From Porphyromonadaceae bacterium (GTDB lineage Bacteria > Bacteroidota > Bacteroidia > Bacteroidales > Porphyromonadaceae): a stretch of 62,586 nucleotides of DNA. Within the stretch, counting starts at the first letter, position 1. Each line of letters begins with the position of its first letter. Made by a program: the position numbers and the translations under genes. The notes below the pieces were generated by a model, which had not been told where the DNA came from, made no database searches, and saw only the letters and a program-made list of their open reading frames with translations. The stretch spans positions 1 to 62,586 of the forward strand of contig JAUMYQ010000010.1 in the NCBI GenBank assembly GCA_030528555.1, in the 5' to 3' direction. This document shows positions 54,344 to 57,805 of this stretch, piece by piece.

Positions 54344-54442
54344 TGCAAGCCCACAAGACAGCTAGGATTATAGGGGCTGGCTAAGCCCCCAAGCGACAAA
54401 AGGATGAGGGAGCGAAGCCCTACCGCCCGCCCCCTTGCCGTA

Positions 54443-54538
54443 TTAGCTCAATAGAGCGACGGCACTAGCCACACGGCATAGCACAAGGGCAAGTACCCAA
54501 AGGCGAACCGCTACCGCTAGCAAATTGCGAGAACTCAT
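54443..54538 (-). CDS. 31-residue hydrophobic peptide, unit 1
   Basis: The ORF is below usual gene-calling size. ATG at 54538 follows AAAGGAG with an 8-nt spacer, a strong Shine-Dalgarno that is rare in this phylum. The product, starting MSSRNLLAVAVRLWVLALV and ending RVASAVALLS, is one membrane helix with two Arg and one Cys. It is residue-for-residue the same as the unit 2 peptide after position 6 while its first residues differ. The start region is complementary to the 5' end of its own leader. Size, hydrophobicity, tandem duplication and leader pairing resemble type I toxin genes (TisB, Ldr and Ibs kinds), but I know no matching family. Confidence 0.8.
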   Translation of the reverse strand: MSSRNLLAVAVRLWVLALVLCRVASAVALLS

Positions 54539-54542
54539 AATG

Positions 54543-54714
54543 ACAACTCCTTTCTTTTTGACGCATAGCTGAATTGCCATGCGACTAAATGACTATTGCC
54601 GTGGTGTGAAGCACGACAAAGTCAAAGCCTGCTGCGGTAGGGCAGCAGGCTTTAGGGTTACCCCCCCGACTTTCACACTAGTTGGAGTTGTAATTTGTGA
54701 GTCTCGCAATCACA
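54543..54714 (-). ncRNA. Structured 5' leader of unit 1
   Basis: RNA from about 54712. First a hairpin TGTGA-TTGCGAGAC-TCACA (54696-54714) whose loop and arm can pair with the ORF start; then ACAACTCC (54684-54691), complementary to the Shine-Dalgarno; then GTGTGAA/TTCACAC enclosing AAAGTC/GACTTT and an AAAGCCTGCTGC/GCAGCAGGCTTT terminator-like hairpin; then CGCATGGC/GCTATGCG (54562-54583). It may act as leader or, if it ends at the central hairpin, as a separate small RNA. Confidence 0.7.
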
Positions 54715-54717
54715 CTG

Positions 54718-54748
54718 CAAACGTAAGTCTTTTTTTATAAATAACAAA
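54718..54748 (-). promoter_or_regulatory. Promoter of unit 1, TTTG-N19-TACGTTTG
   Basis: Minus-strand TTTG (54745-54748) and TACGTTTG (54718-54725) with an exact 19-nt spacer: full match to the Bacteroidota consensus. Confidence 0.85.
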
Positions 54749-54812
54749 ATGATAGCTTCAAGTAACAAAATGATAAAGGGGGCGAAGCCCTACCGCCCGC
54801 CCCCTTGCCGTA

Positions 54813-54908
54813 TTAGCTCAATAGAGCGACGGCACTAGCCACACGGCATAGCACAAGGGCAAGTACCCAAAGGCGAACCGCTACCGCTAGCAAAAACGGG
54901 ACATTCAT
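54813..54908 (-). CDS. 31-residue hydrophobic peptide, unit 2
   Basis: ATG at 54908 with AAAGGAG and an 8-nt spacer. The peptide starts MNVPFLLAVAVRLW and then is the same as unit 1. The codons for residues 2-5 differ completely between units, but in both they pair with the local leader, so the sequence there seems chosen for RNA pairing rather than for the protein. Confidence 0.8.
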   Translation of the reverse strand: MNVPFLLAVAVRLWVLALVLCRVASAVALLS

Positions 54909-54912
54909 AATA

Positions 54913-55084
54913 ACAACTCCTTTCTTTTTGGCAGCAGCGACGTTGCTACTCGCCTCAAATGACTATTGCCGAGGTGCGAAGCTCGACAAAGTCAAAGCCT
55001 GCTGCGGTAGGGCAGCAGGCTTTAGGGTTACCCCTCCGACTTTCGCACTAGTTGGAGTTGTAATTTGTGAAGTCCCGTTTCACG
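54913..55084 (-). ncRNA. Structured 5' leader of unit 2
   Basis: Same fold as unit 1 with other sequence: 5' hairpin GTGAA-ACGGGAC-TTCAC; ACAACTCC (55054-55061) opposite the Shine-Dalgarno; GTGCGAA/TTCGCAC (unit 1 GTGTGAA/TTCACAC) around the same central hairpin; pre-start hairpin AGTAGC/GCTGCT plus GGC/GCC (54930-54954). Confidence 0.7.
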
Positions 55085-55087
55085 CTA

Positions 55088-55118
55088 CAAACATAGGTCT
55101 TTTTTCCTAAATAACAAA
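55088..55118 (-). promoter_or_regulatory. Promoter of unit 2, TTTG-N19-TATGTTTG
   Basis: Minus-strand TTTG (55115-55118) and TATGTTTG (55088-55095), again exactly 19 nt apart. Confidence 0.85.
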
Positions 55119-55138
55119 GTGATAGCCGCACCACAAGC

Positions 55139-57805
55139 CTAAGCGAGGTAGCCGTGCTGGTAGACTTTGGGCTGTATCTTCTGCGCTAGGGTCTGCATGG
55201 CGGAGCGGAGGGCCCCGAGAAGCTCGGTGTAGGTGGGGTCAGAGCTGGAGGCGTTCATCTTACGTTTGCCGTTCTTCTCGGAGAAGCCTTGGAAGTGCGC
55301 CCGAATGTCGTAGTAGGAGGCGTTGGGGTTGGCGTTGGGTTGCGCCATATAGTATCGCCAGAGCGCGCGGCCGGCGGCGAAGACGGCGAGGGCTTCATCG
55401 GAAAACTTAATGGGCTGATGCGTGGCATTGCCCTGCAAAACGGGGTCTGTGACCCCCTCGGGGGTATGGGGGGCGGCTAGCCCCCCTCTGGCGGTCATGC
55501 GTGGCGAGCTGCTGTGTTGGCATCGGGTCTCGGCTTCGGTCACGTACTGAAGTACGCTCCCTTCAGCCTCGCCCTTGCCGCCTTGCATCTCATCCACGCC
55601 TGCCTCGCCATAAGTCCTCGGATTGTCTGAGAATAGGTCGGGGGTGTCGCTGGGGGTGGGGCGCAGCCGTCCGCTGATGTAGTCCGTCATCCAGTGGCTC
55701 TCCATAGCTTCGGGCGCATTGACCTCGTCCTCGCGGAAGGGTATCCAGTGGTTCACGCCCTCGGTACTGGTGATGCGGTTCTGCGTGTGGAAGAGCGTAA
55801 AGGTCAGGCAATCGCTCTGGAACTCCAAGTCCCTACGCCAGCTGTCATTGGGGTAGAGAAATTGGTCTCGGTCGTTCAGCCAATCCGCCTCAATGCAGTA
55901 ACGAACAGCAAAAAAAATTGCTCCGATTTGTATATTAGTAAGAGTAAGAGTAAGAGTAAGAGCATGACTACTATCCCCTATATGATGCTGTATATTGATG
56001 AGGTTTTGGTTCTGAAAGTCGTTACGCCCCGAGTTCATCATCCCGATACCTGAGCTTTCAGGGTCTTTGTTGTCGGAGAGCCAAGAGCCGATCTTCTTAT
56101 GGTTGTCGTGGGCGAATAGACTTTTTTGGGGCTGGGAGGGGTAAGGCAGTCCGTTTTTACCGAAAACATCTGCCACGAATTGCGTGAAGACCTCTTCCTT
56201 TTCCGTGTCCCAGATTTTGAGGCCGATGGGGAACTGCCCCTTGACGTTGTCGAAAGTATCGGCTGGAACCAAAAAAATTTGACCGAGCTTCGCTCGGAAA
56301 TGTTGCCTGAACTTCCGGAAGTTGGGCGCTTGCAGAGTTTTCAACTTTGAAAACTCTGCAATTTTGCATAGAGGAAGTTCGTGGTATATTCTCATTAGAA
56401 ATTGGACAAATAGCTCGGCAATCCCTGCTCCAATCATAGGGCGATACCGTTCGTAGGTCTTGTTGCTAGTGGCTGTTCCTCCTTTATTCTCTCCTGTCCC
56501 TGAGCGTTGCTTGGCATTCCCCGCCTCGGCATAGGGGGGATTGATGTAGATGATGAGCTTACGTCGTTCGTTGGGGTTGGCAATGACCTTGTAGAGGCTG
56601 TCGGGGAGCTTGCCGCCCTCGCTCTGTGGCTTGAAGTCATCGTTGAGGAAGTCGAATTGGAAGACGTGGCTCTCGAGGAGGGCCGCCCCCTGCCTGGCCC
56701 GCTCGTGCATGACCATCACGTCCGCTTGGTCGAGGGTGCTGGCCCAAATGCGGTATTTGTTATTGAGCCCTGCCAGCAAATTGCCCGTGCCAGCGGCACA
56801 GTCCCAGATGTAGTATTCGCTCTGCCAATCGTCCCCAAACTCTAGGGCGAGGTACTCCTGGCTCTTCTCCACCCACTGGCGTGGGGTGAAGTACGCCCCC
56901 TTGCGCTCACGGATGTCCTGAGGCACGAGCAGATCCCTGCGCTCGATGATGTACTCCTGATAGGCCTTGAGAGGCGGACGCTTATACCGCCGCCAAAACT
57001 GCTGATAGGCCTCGATGTGGCGGATGCTGATGGTTGCGTCGAACATTTGCCTGAGGCTCTCCTTGGCAATTTTGTACCCTTGGTTTTGATAGATGACGAA
57101 GAGGTTGTCGCGGATGCTGGTGTCGTCCGAGATGCCCACAGTATCCTTATCATCGACGAAGAGGTCGGCCAGATAAAAGTCGCTGTCGAGGATGCCACTC
57201 TTCTTGAGCGCCTCCCAGTCCACATCGATGATGGGGCGCACGGCCTCGACCCAACGGAGATAGATGGGGAGGAAGTTGTTTTTGTCGATGCGGATCTTCG
57301 CCCCCTCGATGCCTTTGGTTAGGTTGTTCTTGATGAAGAAACGCAGCTCCTCCCCCTCGGTCGCATACCTATATATATAGGCGTTTCGCTTGAGGCTGGC
57401 CTCGATGCGTTCGCGCAGCAGGGCAAACTCTCGGGTGGTGTGGTCGCTCGGGGTAACGAGCCAGTTGAAGTCGTTGAGGTAAAAGACATCCTGCACGCTG
57501 ATATAGGGGACGAAGGCGATCTTCTCGGCATCGAACGCCCCGAGGAAGGGTGGGGGGAGCATGCGATCGAAGGTACGTGCCCGGCCGATAGTGAGGATGA
57601 GCTGGACGAACATCGTGACGACATCCACCCTGCCTGCTTTGGCTTCTGCCCACAGCAGGGGAGCTTGCTCGAAGAGGTGCTGCTGAGCTGGGAAGGCGGC
57701 AAAGTCTATGTTGCCGATGATGGCGGTGGTGTCGAGGTGGGCGAACCATTCGGCCCCGACCTTATTCTTGATTTCTTCCTCACGAAGACCAGCGTAGTAG
57801 AGCAT
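55139..57805 (-). CDS. Large N6-adenine DNA methyltransferase
   Basis: An 888-residue protein with SAM motif I WDCAAGTGNLL (335-344) and catalytic motif INPPYAEAG (NPPY 422-425), preceded by RKGAYFTPRQWV, the usual approach to motif X/I in gamma-type adenine methylases. The 300-residue N-terminal part is not recognised and has no PD-ExK that I can see; the C-terminal part would hold target recognition. No separate nuclease gene is adjacent. Odd points: a GTAAGA hexamer repeat (4 units) encoding LTLTLTLT, and a stretch at about 745-800 that reads like a translated intergenic repeat. It could be an orphan methyltransferase, a type IIG enzyme with an unseen nuclease, or a decayed system. Confidence 0.85.
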   Translation of the reverse strand: MLYYAGLREEEIKNKVGAEWFAHLDTTAIIGNIDFAAFPAQQHLFEQAPLLWAEAKAGRVDVVTMFVQLILTIGRARTFDRMLPPPFLGAFDAEKIAFVPYISVQDVFYLNDFNWLVTPSDHTTREFALLRERIEASLKRNAYIYRYATEGEELRFFIKNNLTKGIEGAKIRIDKNNFLPIYLRWVEAVRPIIDVDWEALKKSGILDSDFYLADLFVDDKDTVGISDDTSIRDNLFVIYQNQGYKIAKESLRQMFDATISIRHIEAYQQFWRRYKRPPLKAYQEYIIERRDLLVPQDIRERKGAYFTPRQWVEKSQEYLALEFGDDWQSEYYIWDCAAGTGNLLAGLNNKYRIWASTLDQADVMVMHERARQGAALLESHVFQFDFLNDDFKPQSEGGKLPDSLYKVIANPNERRKLIIYINPPYAEAGNAKQRSGTGENKGGTATSNKTYERYRPMIGAGIAELFVQFLMRIYHELPLCKIAEFSKLKTLQAPNFRKFRQHFRAKLGQIFLVPADTFDNVKGQFPIGLKIWDTEKEEVFTQFVADVFGKNGLPYPSQPQKSLFAHDNHKKIGSWLSDNKDPESSGIGMMNSGRNDFQNQNLINIQHHIGDSSHALTLTLTLTNIQIGAIFFAVRYCIEADWLNDRDQFLYPNDSWRRDLEFQSDCLTFTLFHTQNRITSTEGVNHWIPFREDEVNAPEAMESHWMTDYISGRLRPTPSDTPDLFSDNPRTYGEAGVDEMQGGKGEAEGSVLQYVTEAETRCQHSSSPRMTARGGLAAPHTPEGVTDPVLQGNATHQPIKFSDEALAVFAAGRALWRYYMAQPNANPNASYYDIRAHFQGFSEKNGKRKMNASSSDPTYTELLGALRSAMQTLAQKIQPKVYQHGYLA
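55536..55585 (+). repeat. Degenerate TCACGTACT repeat, copy 2, inside the methyltransferase gene
   Basis: CTTCGGTCACGTACTGAAGT then ACGCTCCCTTCAGCCTCGCC, related to 45227-45270 and 57901-57945. In frame it encodes GEAEGSVLQYVTEAE. Confidence 0.7.
55938..55961 (+). repeat. GTAAGA hexanucleotide microsatellite in the methyltransferase gene
   Basis: Four perfect units, in frame, encoding Leu-Thr repeats. Copy change alters length by two residues per unit without frameshift. Confidence 0.9.

Follow-up and report, generated by a model that had tools for sequence, protein, structure and literature searches.

Tandem units and their surroundings

The window (the whole stretch of DNA that was analysed, 62,586 nucleotides) carries two tandem units of 345 bp each on the minus strand, with an offset of 370 bp and 89% identity, and the arrangement given in the preliminary description was confirmed. 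A promoter of the form TTTG-N19-TAnnTTTG, claimed there to be perfect, was found upstream in both units. The RNA predicted for each unit is about 310 nt long and includes a Shine-Dalgarno (SD) sequence, a 31-codon open reading frame (ORF), also as described, and a terminator-like hairpin.

54412..54756, minus strand: unit 1 (downstream copy); 89% identity to unit 2 over 345 bp, repeat families D1-D3
54782..55126, minus strand: unit 2 (upstream copy); same repeat and identity basis as unit 1
54718..54748, minus strand: unit 1 promoter, TTTG-N19-TACGTTTG, Bacteroidota-type element
55088..55118, minus strand: unit 2 promoter, TTTG-N19-TATGTTTG, Bacteroidota-type element
54547..54555, minus strand: unit 1 SD, AGAAAGGAG; 9-nt complement to the 16S 3' tail of relatives
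54917..54925, minus strand: unit 2 SD, AGAAAGGAG; 9-nt complement to the 16S 3' tail of relatives
54443..54538, minus strand: unit 1 ORF, MSSRNLLAVAVRLWVLALVLCRVASAVALLS, 31 codons; putatively coding from its position, no homologue found
54813..54908, minus strand: unit 2 ORF, MNVPFLLAVAVRLWVLALVLCRVASAVALLS, 31 codons; putatively coding from its position
54407..54435, minus strand: unit 1 terminator-like hairpin; 54417-54426 are a 10-nt complement of the P3 loop region 54634-54643
54776..54806, minus strand: unit 2 terminator-like hairpin; 54787-54796 are a 10-nt complement of the P3 loop region 55004-55013

Sites of the form TTTG-N17-22-TAnnTTTG numbered 12 in the window (0.53 expected from shuffles), and no further copy of the units was found in the 1.78-Mb assembly. 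Directly upstream of the units lies a gene for 888 amino acids (55139-57805, minus strand), in which an NPPY methyltransferase-like motif was noticed by eye. This gene had no Pfam or PADLOC match and one NCBIfam match far below the threshold, to a defence methyltransferase; by its appearance, it looks like a restriction-modification or defence gene. It sits between cobalamin genes, which flank the stretch: one flank has CbiG, a TP_methylase domain and CbiD/CbiJ, and the other has a TP_methylase/CbiC gene.

Predicted helix over the start codon and SD

The 5' end of each predicted RNA is complementary to the beginning of its own ORF, and the resulting helix is hereafter called the lock (outer part, P1a; inner part, P1b).

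54684..54710, minus strand: unit 1 lock, 5' strand, P1a AUUGCGAGA/CUCA and P1b ACAACUCC; from inverted repeat I4, fold and self-versus-cross test
54524..54550, minus strand: unit 1 lock, 3' strand, SD core, AUG and codons 2-5; from inverted repeat, fold and self-versus-cross test
55054..55080, minus strand: unit 2 lock, 5' strand, P1a AAACGGGAC/UUCA and P1b ACAACUCC; from inverted repeat I3, fold and self-versus-cross test
54894..54920, minus strand: unit 2 lock, 3' strand, SD core, AUG and codons 2-5; from inverted repeat, fold and self-versus-cross test

In P1a of unit 1, AUUGCGAGA followed by CUCA is complementary to UGAG-U-UCUCGCAAU, and in that of unit 2, AAACGGGAC followed by UUCA is complementary to UGAA-U-GUCCCGUUU. 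The letters were checked, and the 9 bp, bulged U and 4 bp that had been reported are present; 8 of the 13 pairs differ between the units, and every one of them is still Watson-Crick. As to the extent of the 5' helix, the outer part had been given correctly, but the helix is longer: its 27-nt arms (74% and 78% complementary) include ACAACUCC/GGAGUUGU and reach the SD, which is covered by P1b. The fold energies were far below those of shuffled sequences (z = -8.55 for unit 1 and -7.38 for unit 2).

The ORF changes between the units all lie in codons 2-5 (eight differences, with the remaining ORF DNA identical), and the leader changes cluster in the lock strand and in hairpin P5 (comparison of 54777-54930 with 54407-54560). 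It looks as if the letters of the lock had been selected to differ between the tandem copies.

Related loci

A covariance-model search for homologues with conserved pairing, which the preliminary description had proposed, found relatives, and the pairing was kept in them. Three models were used: R1, built from both units; R2, a core model without the outer helix; and R3, a later core model. Over 38 Porphyromonadaceae genomes, R1 found one more locus (G020, same genus as the window, E = 1e-8), R2 added G019 (E = 5.5e-12) and G037 (E = 2.4e-5), and R3 added G032 (E = 5.2e-5), so that the RNA is carried by 5 of the 38 family genomes. The R3 family search gave 20 rows, of which 14 with E > 0.1 were dropped, and P1a was inspected for part of the rows. 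A search with the G032 peptide led to a Parabacteroides distasonis plasmid (E = 3e-3), in which the outer lock is the same, and a seven-row peptide profile led to G133, a genome of another Bacteroidales family (E = 3.3e-11). The six further loci are thus from four Porphyromonadaceae genomes, one Parabacteroides plasmid and one other Bacteroidales genome. The profile, run over 384 Bacteroidales genomes, gave 19 places at E <= 0.01, and the surroundings were examined at seven of these. Among four strong matches, G133 has the lock, L082 and L084 have local hairpins at the AUG, and L100 has none (ORF assigned by eye).

R1 found only the window's own genome among the Bacteroidales. The R2 and R3 scans of 393 and 384 Bacteroidales genomes, respectively, had weak sensitivity because of stricter filters and the few candidates scored per genome; their candidates (L026-L030, L066 and L067) were taken, on the alignments, for single hairpins or chance matches. 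Similarity to the DNA of the units was found neither in plasmids, phages and E. coli genomes nor in 25 other genomes of the genus. A pattern for the P3 hairpin matched 11 stretches among genome contigs, of which R1 supported only L014 as real, and this is the same contig as that of G020 (identical letters over the shared stretch). Pattern scans of viral sequences gave no relative: one of them matched nothing, L009 is a lone P3-like hairpin, L031 is an unrelated gene, and the 19 viral loci L032-L050 have an ordinary phage-type SD (best R2 score, 20.4 bits). Among the peptide queries, that of the window matched nothing on plasmids, and the G037 peptide, used singly, matched neither phages nor any of 198 Bacteroidales genomes; the G032 and Parabacteroides peptides had only weak matches in phages (E = 3).

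The G037 copy is flanked on one side by an integrase gene, which has Pfam SAM and arm domains, and on the other by a Glyco_hydro_108 gene (endolysin, lysis-type), and further neighbours were taken for lysis genes without Pfam support. The G019 copy lies between a repressor-like gene (Peptidase_S24/HTH_3) and genes with HTH_17, AAA and RecT domains, with an integrase gene nearby; a 383-aa ORF in these surroundings matches a PADLOC candidate model. Directly beside the G019 lock RNA, on the opposite strand, lies a DUF2693 RNA (RF02956; L023, 1112-1335, plus strand), which is also a structured RNA family, but a distinct one without a match to the lock RNA. The G020 copy adjoins a tyrosine integrase gene and an HTH_17 gene, the G032 copy was read as lying among chromosomal ORFs, and the Parabacteroides copy is on a 14.6-kb plasmid. 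A TTTG-N19/20-TAnnTTTG promoter stands ahead of the pairing strand in 6 of the 7 loci scanned; the seventh, the plasmid copy, is cut upstream. In G133, the -7 box is present, and the nearest TTTG is 14 bases off, not 17-22.

Pairing within and between loci

For the self-versus-cross test, 40 nt starting 4 nt past the -7 box were compared with 45 nt after the SD, and the longest exact complement was recorded at the eight loci. The own-locus runs were 9, 9, 8, 12, 11, 9, 9 and 11 nt (for G020, the run is 10 nt if the stretch is untrimmed), while the 56 mismatched combinations had a mean run of 4.7 and a maximum of 7. None of 40,319 reassignments of the eight loci matched the own-pair sum; the two units enter this test as close relatives that are not fully independent, though eight of their lock pairs differ. 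When single loci were compared with shuffled letters, 0 to 43 of 2000 reached the own run. Six of the eight loci had been found without use of the outer lock helix: G019, G037 and G032 came from the core-only models and the Parabacteroides plasmid and G133 from the peptide alone, and the match of G020 to R1 covered model positions 22-171 only.

The own 5' end thus matches the own start region in all eight loci, in agreement with the earlier proposal that the first codons are selected for RNA pairing; the comparison supports a constraint by RNA pairing on these codons. In G032, the pairing even crosses the AUG (UGAAAUCGC-A-AUCCUGC with GCAGGAU-A-GCGAUUUCA). As the pairing is kept while the letters are free to change, conservation seems to act on the lock as such. 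In P1b, 8 nt of the leader pair with the SD in 6 of the 8 loci, in some of them by a copy of the 3' tail of the 16S rRNA; by eye, P1b is only short in G032 and G133. In the five-sequence alignment described below, the SD-masking strand of G019 is the nearer CCCUCC, as against GCACCUCC in the fold of G019 itself.

SD strength and the 16S rRNA tail

Bacteroidia ribosomes are described as concealing the 3' tail of the 16S rRNA and not recognising SDs (PMC9976891). With the mature end assumed, the tail is GGAACACCUCCUUUCU in G001 and G006 (relatives in the genus), G032 and G037; the 16S pattern matched these 4 of the 8 genomes searched and had no match in G000, G019, G020 and G133. In 7 of the 8 loci, the SD region is exactly complementary to this tail over 9-14 nt; in G020, the complement is 7 nt. 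The SD-masking leader strand, in turn, repeats the tail over 12 nt in G020 and G037, 9 nt in the plasmid copy and 7 nt in G019, and over only 4 nt in both units, G032 and G133. Complements of at least 9 nt to the tail occur at six positions in the window (two are adjacent, giving five sites), and two of these are the SDs of the units.

Predicted inner hairpins, possible pseudoknot and kissing loop

Between the two strands of the lock, further hairpins were predicted.

54624..54653, minus strand: unit 1 hairpin P3 (AAAGCCUGCUGC-CCUACC-GCAGCAGGCUUU); fold, covariation in five sequences
54994..55023, minus strand: unit 2 hairpin P3; fold, covariation in five sequences
54591..54623, minus strand: unit 1 hairpin P4; fold, loop 54604-54610 offers a pseudoknot with 54672-54678
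54961..54993, minus strand: unit 2 hairpin P4; fold, pseudoknot of 54974-54980 with 55042-55048
54560..54585, minus strand: unit 1 variable hairpin P5; fold
54930..54954, minus strand: unit 2 variable hairpin P5; fold

In a five-sequence alignment of the core, which was fitted to the structure, 97.3% of the cells of four core helices are paired, and 23 of 39 pairs have changes on both sides; none of 500 shuffles was as high, and slid controls gave at most 5 pairs. In a three-sequence MAFFT alignment with the structure drawn from unit 1, 12 pairs were changed. The P4 loop could pair with the leader as a pseudoknot in both units (with a U-A to C-G change between them) and in G020, G019 and the plasmid copy; G037 and G032 lack this pseudoknot, and its shuffle control is weak (112, 57, 18, 79 and 104 of 1000 where the pairing is possible).

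Complementarity between the P3 loop and the terminator loop extends over 10 nt in the units, 8 nt in G032, 7 nt in G037, and 6 nt in G019 and G133, and this contact, too, covaries. With hand-picked loops, and with the units counted once together with five loci, none of 719 reassignments reached the own sum. In G020, this kissing helix is weak (4 Watson-Crick pairs, 6 with G-U), and terminator loops from other loci are equal or better partners for its P3 loop; the terminator of the plasmid copy was not identified. In the predicted structure, the 5' helix would thus be one part of a branched RNA with a possible pseudoknot and a kissing helix between loop and terminator.

These data bear on one alternative, namely that the units are a DNA-level repeat (an attachment site, a mobile repeat or a recombination duplicate) whose RNA-like arms are accidental. 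Two tandem copies beside a methyltransferase-like gene would suit it. A promoter and a terminator are rightly placed, however, no further copies occur in the assembly, and the pairing is kept with different letters and is best within the own locus, with the kissing helix of G020 as the exception. We regard such an origin as very improbable.

Peptides

The peptides of the units read MSSRN/MNVPF-LLAVAVRLWVLALVLCRVASAVALLS. The strong SD and hydrophobic peptide named in the preliminary description were borne out by a 9-nt SD and by GRAVY values of 1.60 and 1.97, but the peptide has no homologue in the relatives. Outside codons 2-5, the DNA of the two ORFs is identical, so that their comparison carries no signal of coding, and because the hydrophobic peptide has no homologue, the coding status of the window ORFs rests on their position. 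GRAVY is -0.16 for the G020 peptide, -0.93 for G032 and -1.06 for G037. There is no resemblance between the window and G020 peptides (1232 of 2000 shuffles score as well), and the AUG frame of G020 has only three codons; its 38-aa peptide would need a TTG start four bases on. At several loci, the start codon is doubled in another frame (L004, 1480-1500, minus strand; L023, L024 and L072; ATGcTTG, ATGaATG, ATGcATG and ATGTG), and a longer peptide begins at the second, overlapping or nearly overlapping start codon.

The peptides of G019, G037, G032, the Parabacteroides plasmid and G133 belong to a single family; their length is about 40 residues, mostly basic ones, and their core is RYITKNGKRIYP-like. 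The family also occurs without the lock leader at three further Bacteroidales loci (L082, L100 and L084) and, behind other leaders, on plasmids of Staphylococcus, Planococcus, Acinetobacter and Enterobacteriaceae. The leaders of these last relatives are built differently from the lock; in several of them, the SD or the start seems to lie in a hairpin (minimum free energy or by eye, uncontrolled). A basic family of about 40 aa with the pattern Y/F-x-x-Y-I-T-x-N-G-K-R-I-Y-P was noted at L072-L075 and L077-L081, on plasmids of Bacteroidota, Bacillota and Pseudomonadota; it is often without a gene listing, and its leaders seem to form structure around the start codon. In the Acinetobacter plasmid copy (L075, 2492-3770), the peptide gene is closely followed by nucleotidyltransferase and ThiF-family genes, an arrangement that we take to resemble some CBASS-like defence operons. 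DNA like the Enterobacter copy was found in 14 of 5426 E. coli genomes, always plasmid-borne, and all 14 plasmid records list no gene under the match; among the plasmid matches listed, 31 of 40 have no gene under the match, in a gene table that is itself incomplete.

Database searches did not assign a function to these peptides. The window and relatives' peptides had no Pfam match and, in NCBIfam, only one match at chance level (0.14); PADLOC had no match for the basic family; the best PHROG matches were weak and to entries without a function (phrog_10654, E = 0.0043; phrog_30400, E = 0.0049); and the peptide profile matched nothing convincing among solved structures (best E = 0.25).

The same leader thus precedes different kinds of peptide; therefore, on comparison of the sequences, the leader appears to be the module and the peptide exchangeable, and the hydrophobic peptide would not define the RNA. 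In another reading, it would be the RNA itself that functions, as a large structured non-coding RNA that peptides joined in some lineages, and the ORF, at least that of the window, would be incidental. In favour of it, what is conserved is RNA, the fold has high stability, and no homologues were found for the peptides of the units and of G020, whose AUG frame is so short. Against it are the one conserved peptide family at the same place in G019, G037, G032, the plasmid and G133 and the centring of the conserved pairing on the SD and start codon, and we consider an RNA product decidedly unlikely.

Comparison with known systems

The preliminary description did not recognise the family, and in Rfam 15 at the gathering cut-off the RNA of the units had no match (sub-threshold matches in the window were far below the gathering scores), nor did the lock RNA have a match in 13 related loci (G133 not among them). 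No Rfam or sequence match to AapA/IsoA or any known toxin-mRNA family was found, and, among the matches listed in the open-licence literature on the topic, there was no description of the lock RNA. Large catalogues of candidate RNAs, such as that of PMC8040213, may contain it unnamed.

The closest likeness is to aapA/IsoA of Helicobacter. The AapA3 ORF is 90 nt, the full-length mRNA is inert as 5'-3' long-distance pairing hides the SD, activation is by 3'-end truncation, and the fold is kept at various aapA loci (PMC6733600). The short ORF and the SD hidden by long-range pairing, predicted here, are shared as far as that account goes. In contrast to what it describes, the extreme 5' end pairs here with codons after the start, the leader masks the SD, a separate kissing loop engages the terminator, the antisense promoter was not found, an Rfam match is lacking, and most of the relatives' peptides are basic.

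These points bear on the proposal that the locus is type I toxin-like, of which the structured mRNA candidate is supported, and the type I membership lacks support in the form proposed. In a classical type I toxin-antitoxin system, the peptide would be a membrane toxin, an antisense RNA would come from the same locus, and the leader would be a second safety catch. The very hydrophobic peptides of the units and the inertness of full-length AapA mRNA through long-range pairing (PMC6733600) fit such a system. An antisense promoter of the Bacteroidota consensus, however, was found in none of the 7 loci scanned (TTTG-N-TAnnTTTG type only; G133 lay outside the scan) apart from one degenerate match in the plasmid copy, and 5 of the 6 relatives have basic peptides. 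We therefore hold a classical type I system to be unlikely.

In timP/TimR, a structure with a pseudoknot sequesters the ribosome binding site of the full-length, unprocessed RNA (PMC11228461), and the lock RNA likewise has a conserved predicted structure over the ribosome binding site and a possible pseudoknot. Translation of timP depends on its pseudoknot, and repression comes from a separate sRNA (PMC11228461); the host lineage also differs. In Flavobacterium, rpsU is autoregulated by bS21-less ribosomes, and none of the Bacteroidales meet the rpsU criteria used there (PMC9976891). The likeness here is an extended SD of great strength within a class of bacteria in which ribosomes usually disregard SDs; in contrast to rpsU as described, the extended SDs found here are on tiny, often mobile peptide genes and are masked. 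We know of no lock of this kind for rpsU.

Riboswitches have a conserved core inside a variable P1. The same layout here would fit a cis-regulatory sensor, riboswitch-like or of the ribosome state, whose peptide is not harmful, for example a phage regulatory peptide. The extended SD and the 16S-tail mimic point to the ribosome, and the G019 copy lies between a repressor-like gene and early-type genes. There is no ligand candidate, however, the core itself is rather variable, and a P1 of roughly 16-25 bp (read from the folds) would be hard for a small ligand to open; a sensor is possible, if on the unlikely side.

A more specific form of regulation would be a ribosome-state switch on mobile elements, in which peptide synthesis would wait both for ribosomes whose 16S tail is free, for example through loss or replacement of bS21 in phage infection or stress, and for opening of the full-length lock. 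The reasoning is that the ribosomes of the phylum hide the anti-SD, yet these mRNAs carry very strong SDs (up to 14 nt) and mask them, at several loci by the leader's own copy of the 16S tail (12 nt identical in G020 and G037). The letters of the lock would then differ between tandem copies so that each mRNA silences only itself. We consider this switch improbable as it stands.

Proposed mechanism

The reading we prefer, and think probable, is that of a self-locked mRNA module, often on prophage-like elements and plasmids, that silences a small effector peptide until the full-length RNA is opened. This and the alternative readings partly overlap, and the probabilities we attach to them do not sum to one. 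Each unit would be a free-standing gene with a promoter, a self-locking mRNA of about 310 nt, a tiny ORF and a terminator. The 5' end of the transcript would wait for the SD and the first codons and then close over both; the terminator would then kiss the leader, by which the lock would depend on an intact 3' end. The full-length transcript would be translationally silent because its 5' end covers the start and SD and the loops kiss. The peptide is probably a small effector whose constant production would be harmful or costly; it would be made only after opening of the RNA, most likely by cleavage or by a factor linked to infection or stress. The logic would be as in the AapA-type toxin mRNAs as described (PMC6733600), with a different build. 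Since the lock tolerates other letters as long as they pair, a swap of its strands would test the mechanism directly.

If true, Bacteroidota would have in the lock RNA a class of self-silencing mRNA not described before, with unusually complete locks, in which the start codons, the SD and the terminator are all engaged. The class would be tied to prophage-like elements and plasmids, and in most relatives it is joined to a family of tiny peptides that is often missing from gene tables. It would also provide a concrete case for the purpose of strong SDs in a phylum that mostly ignores them.
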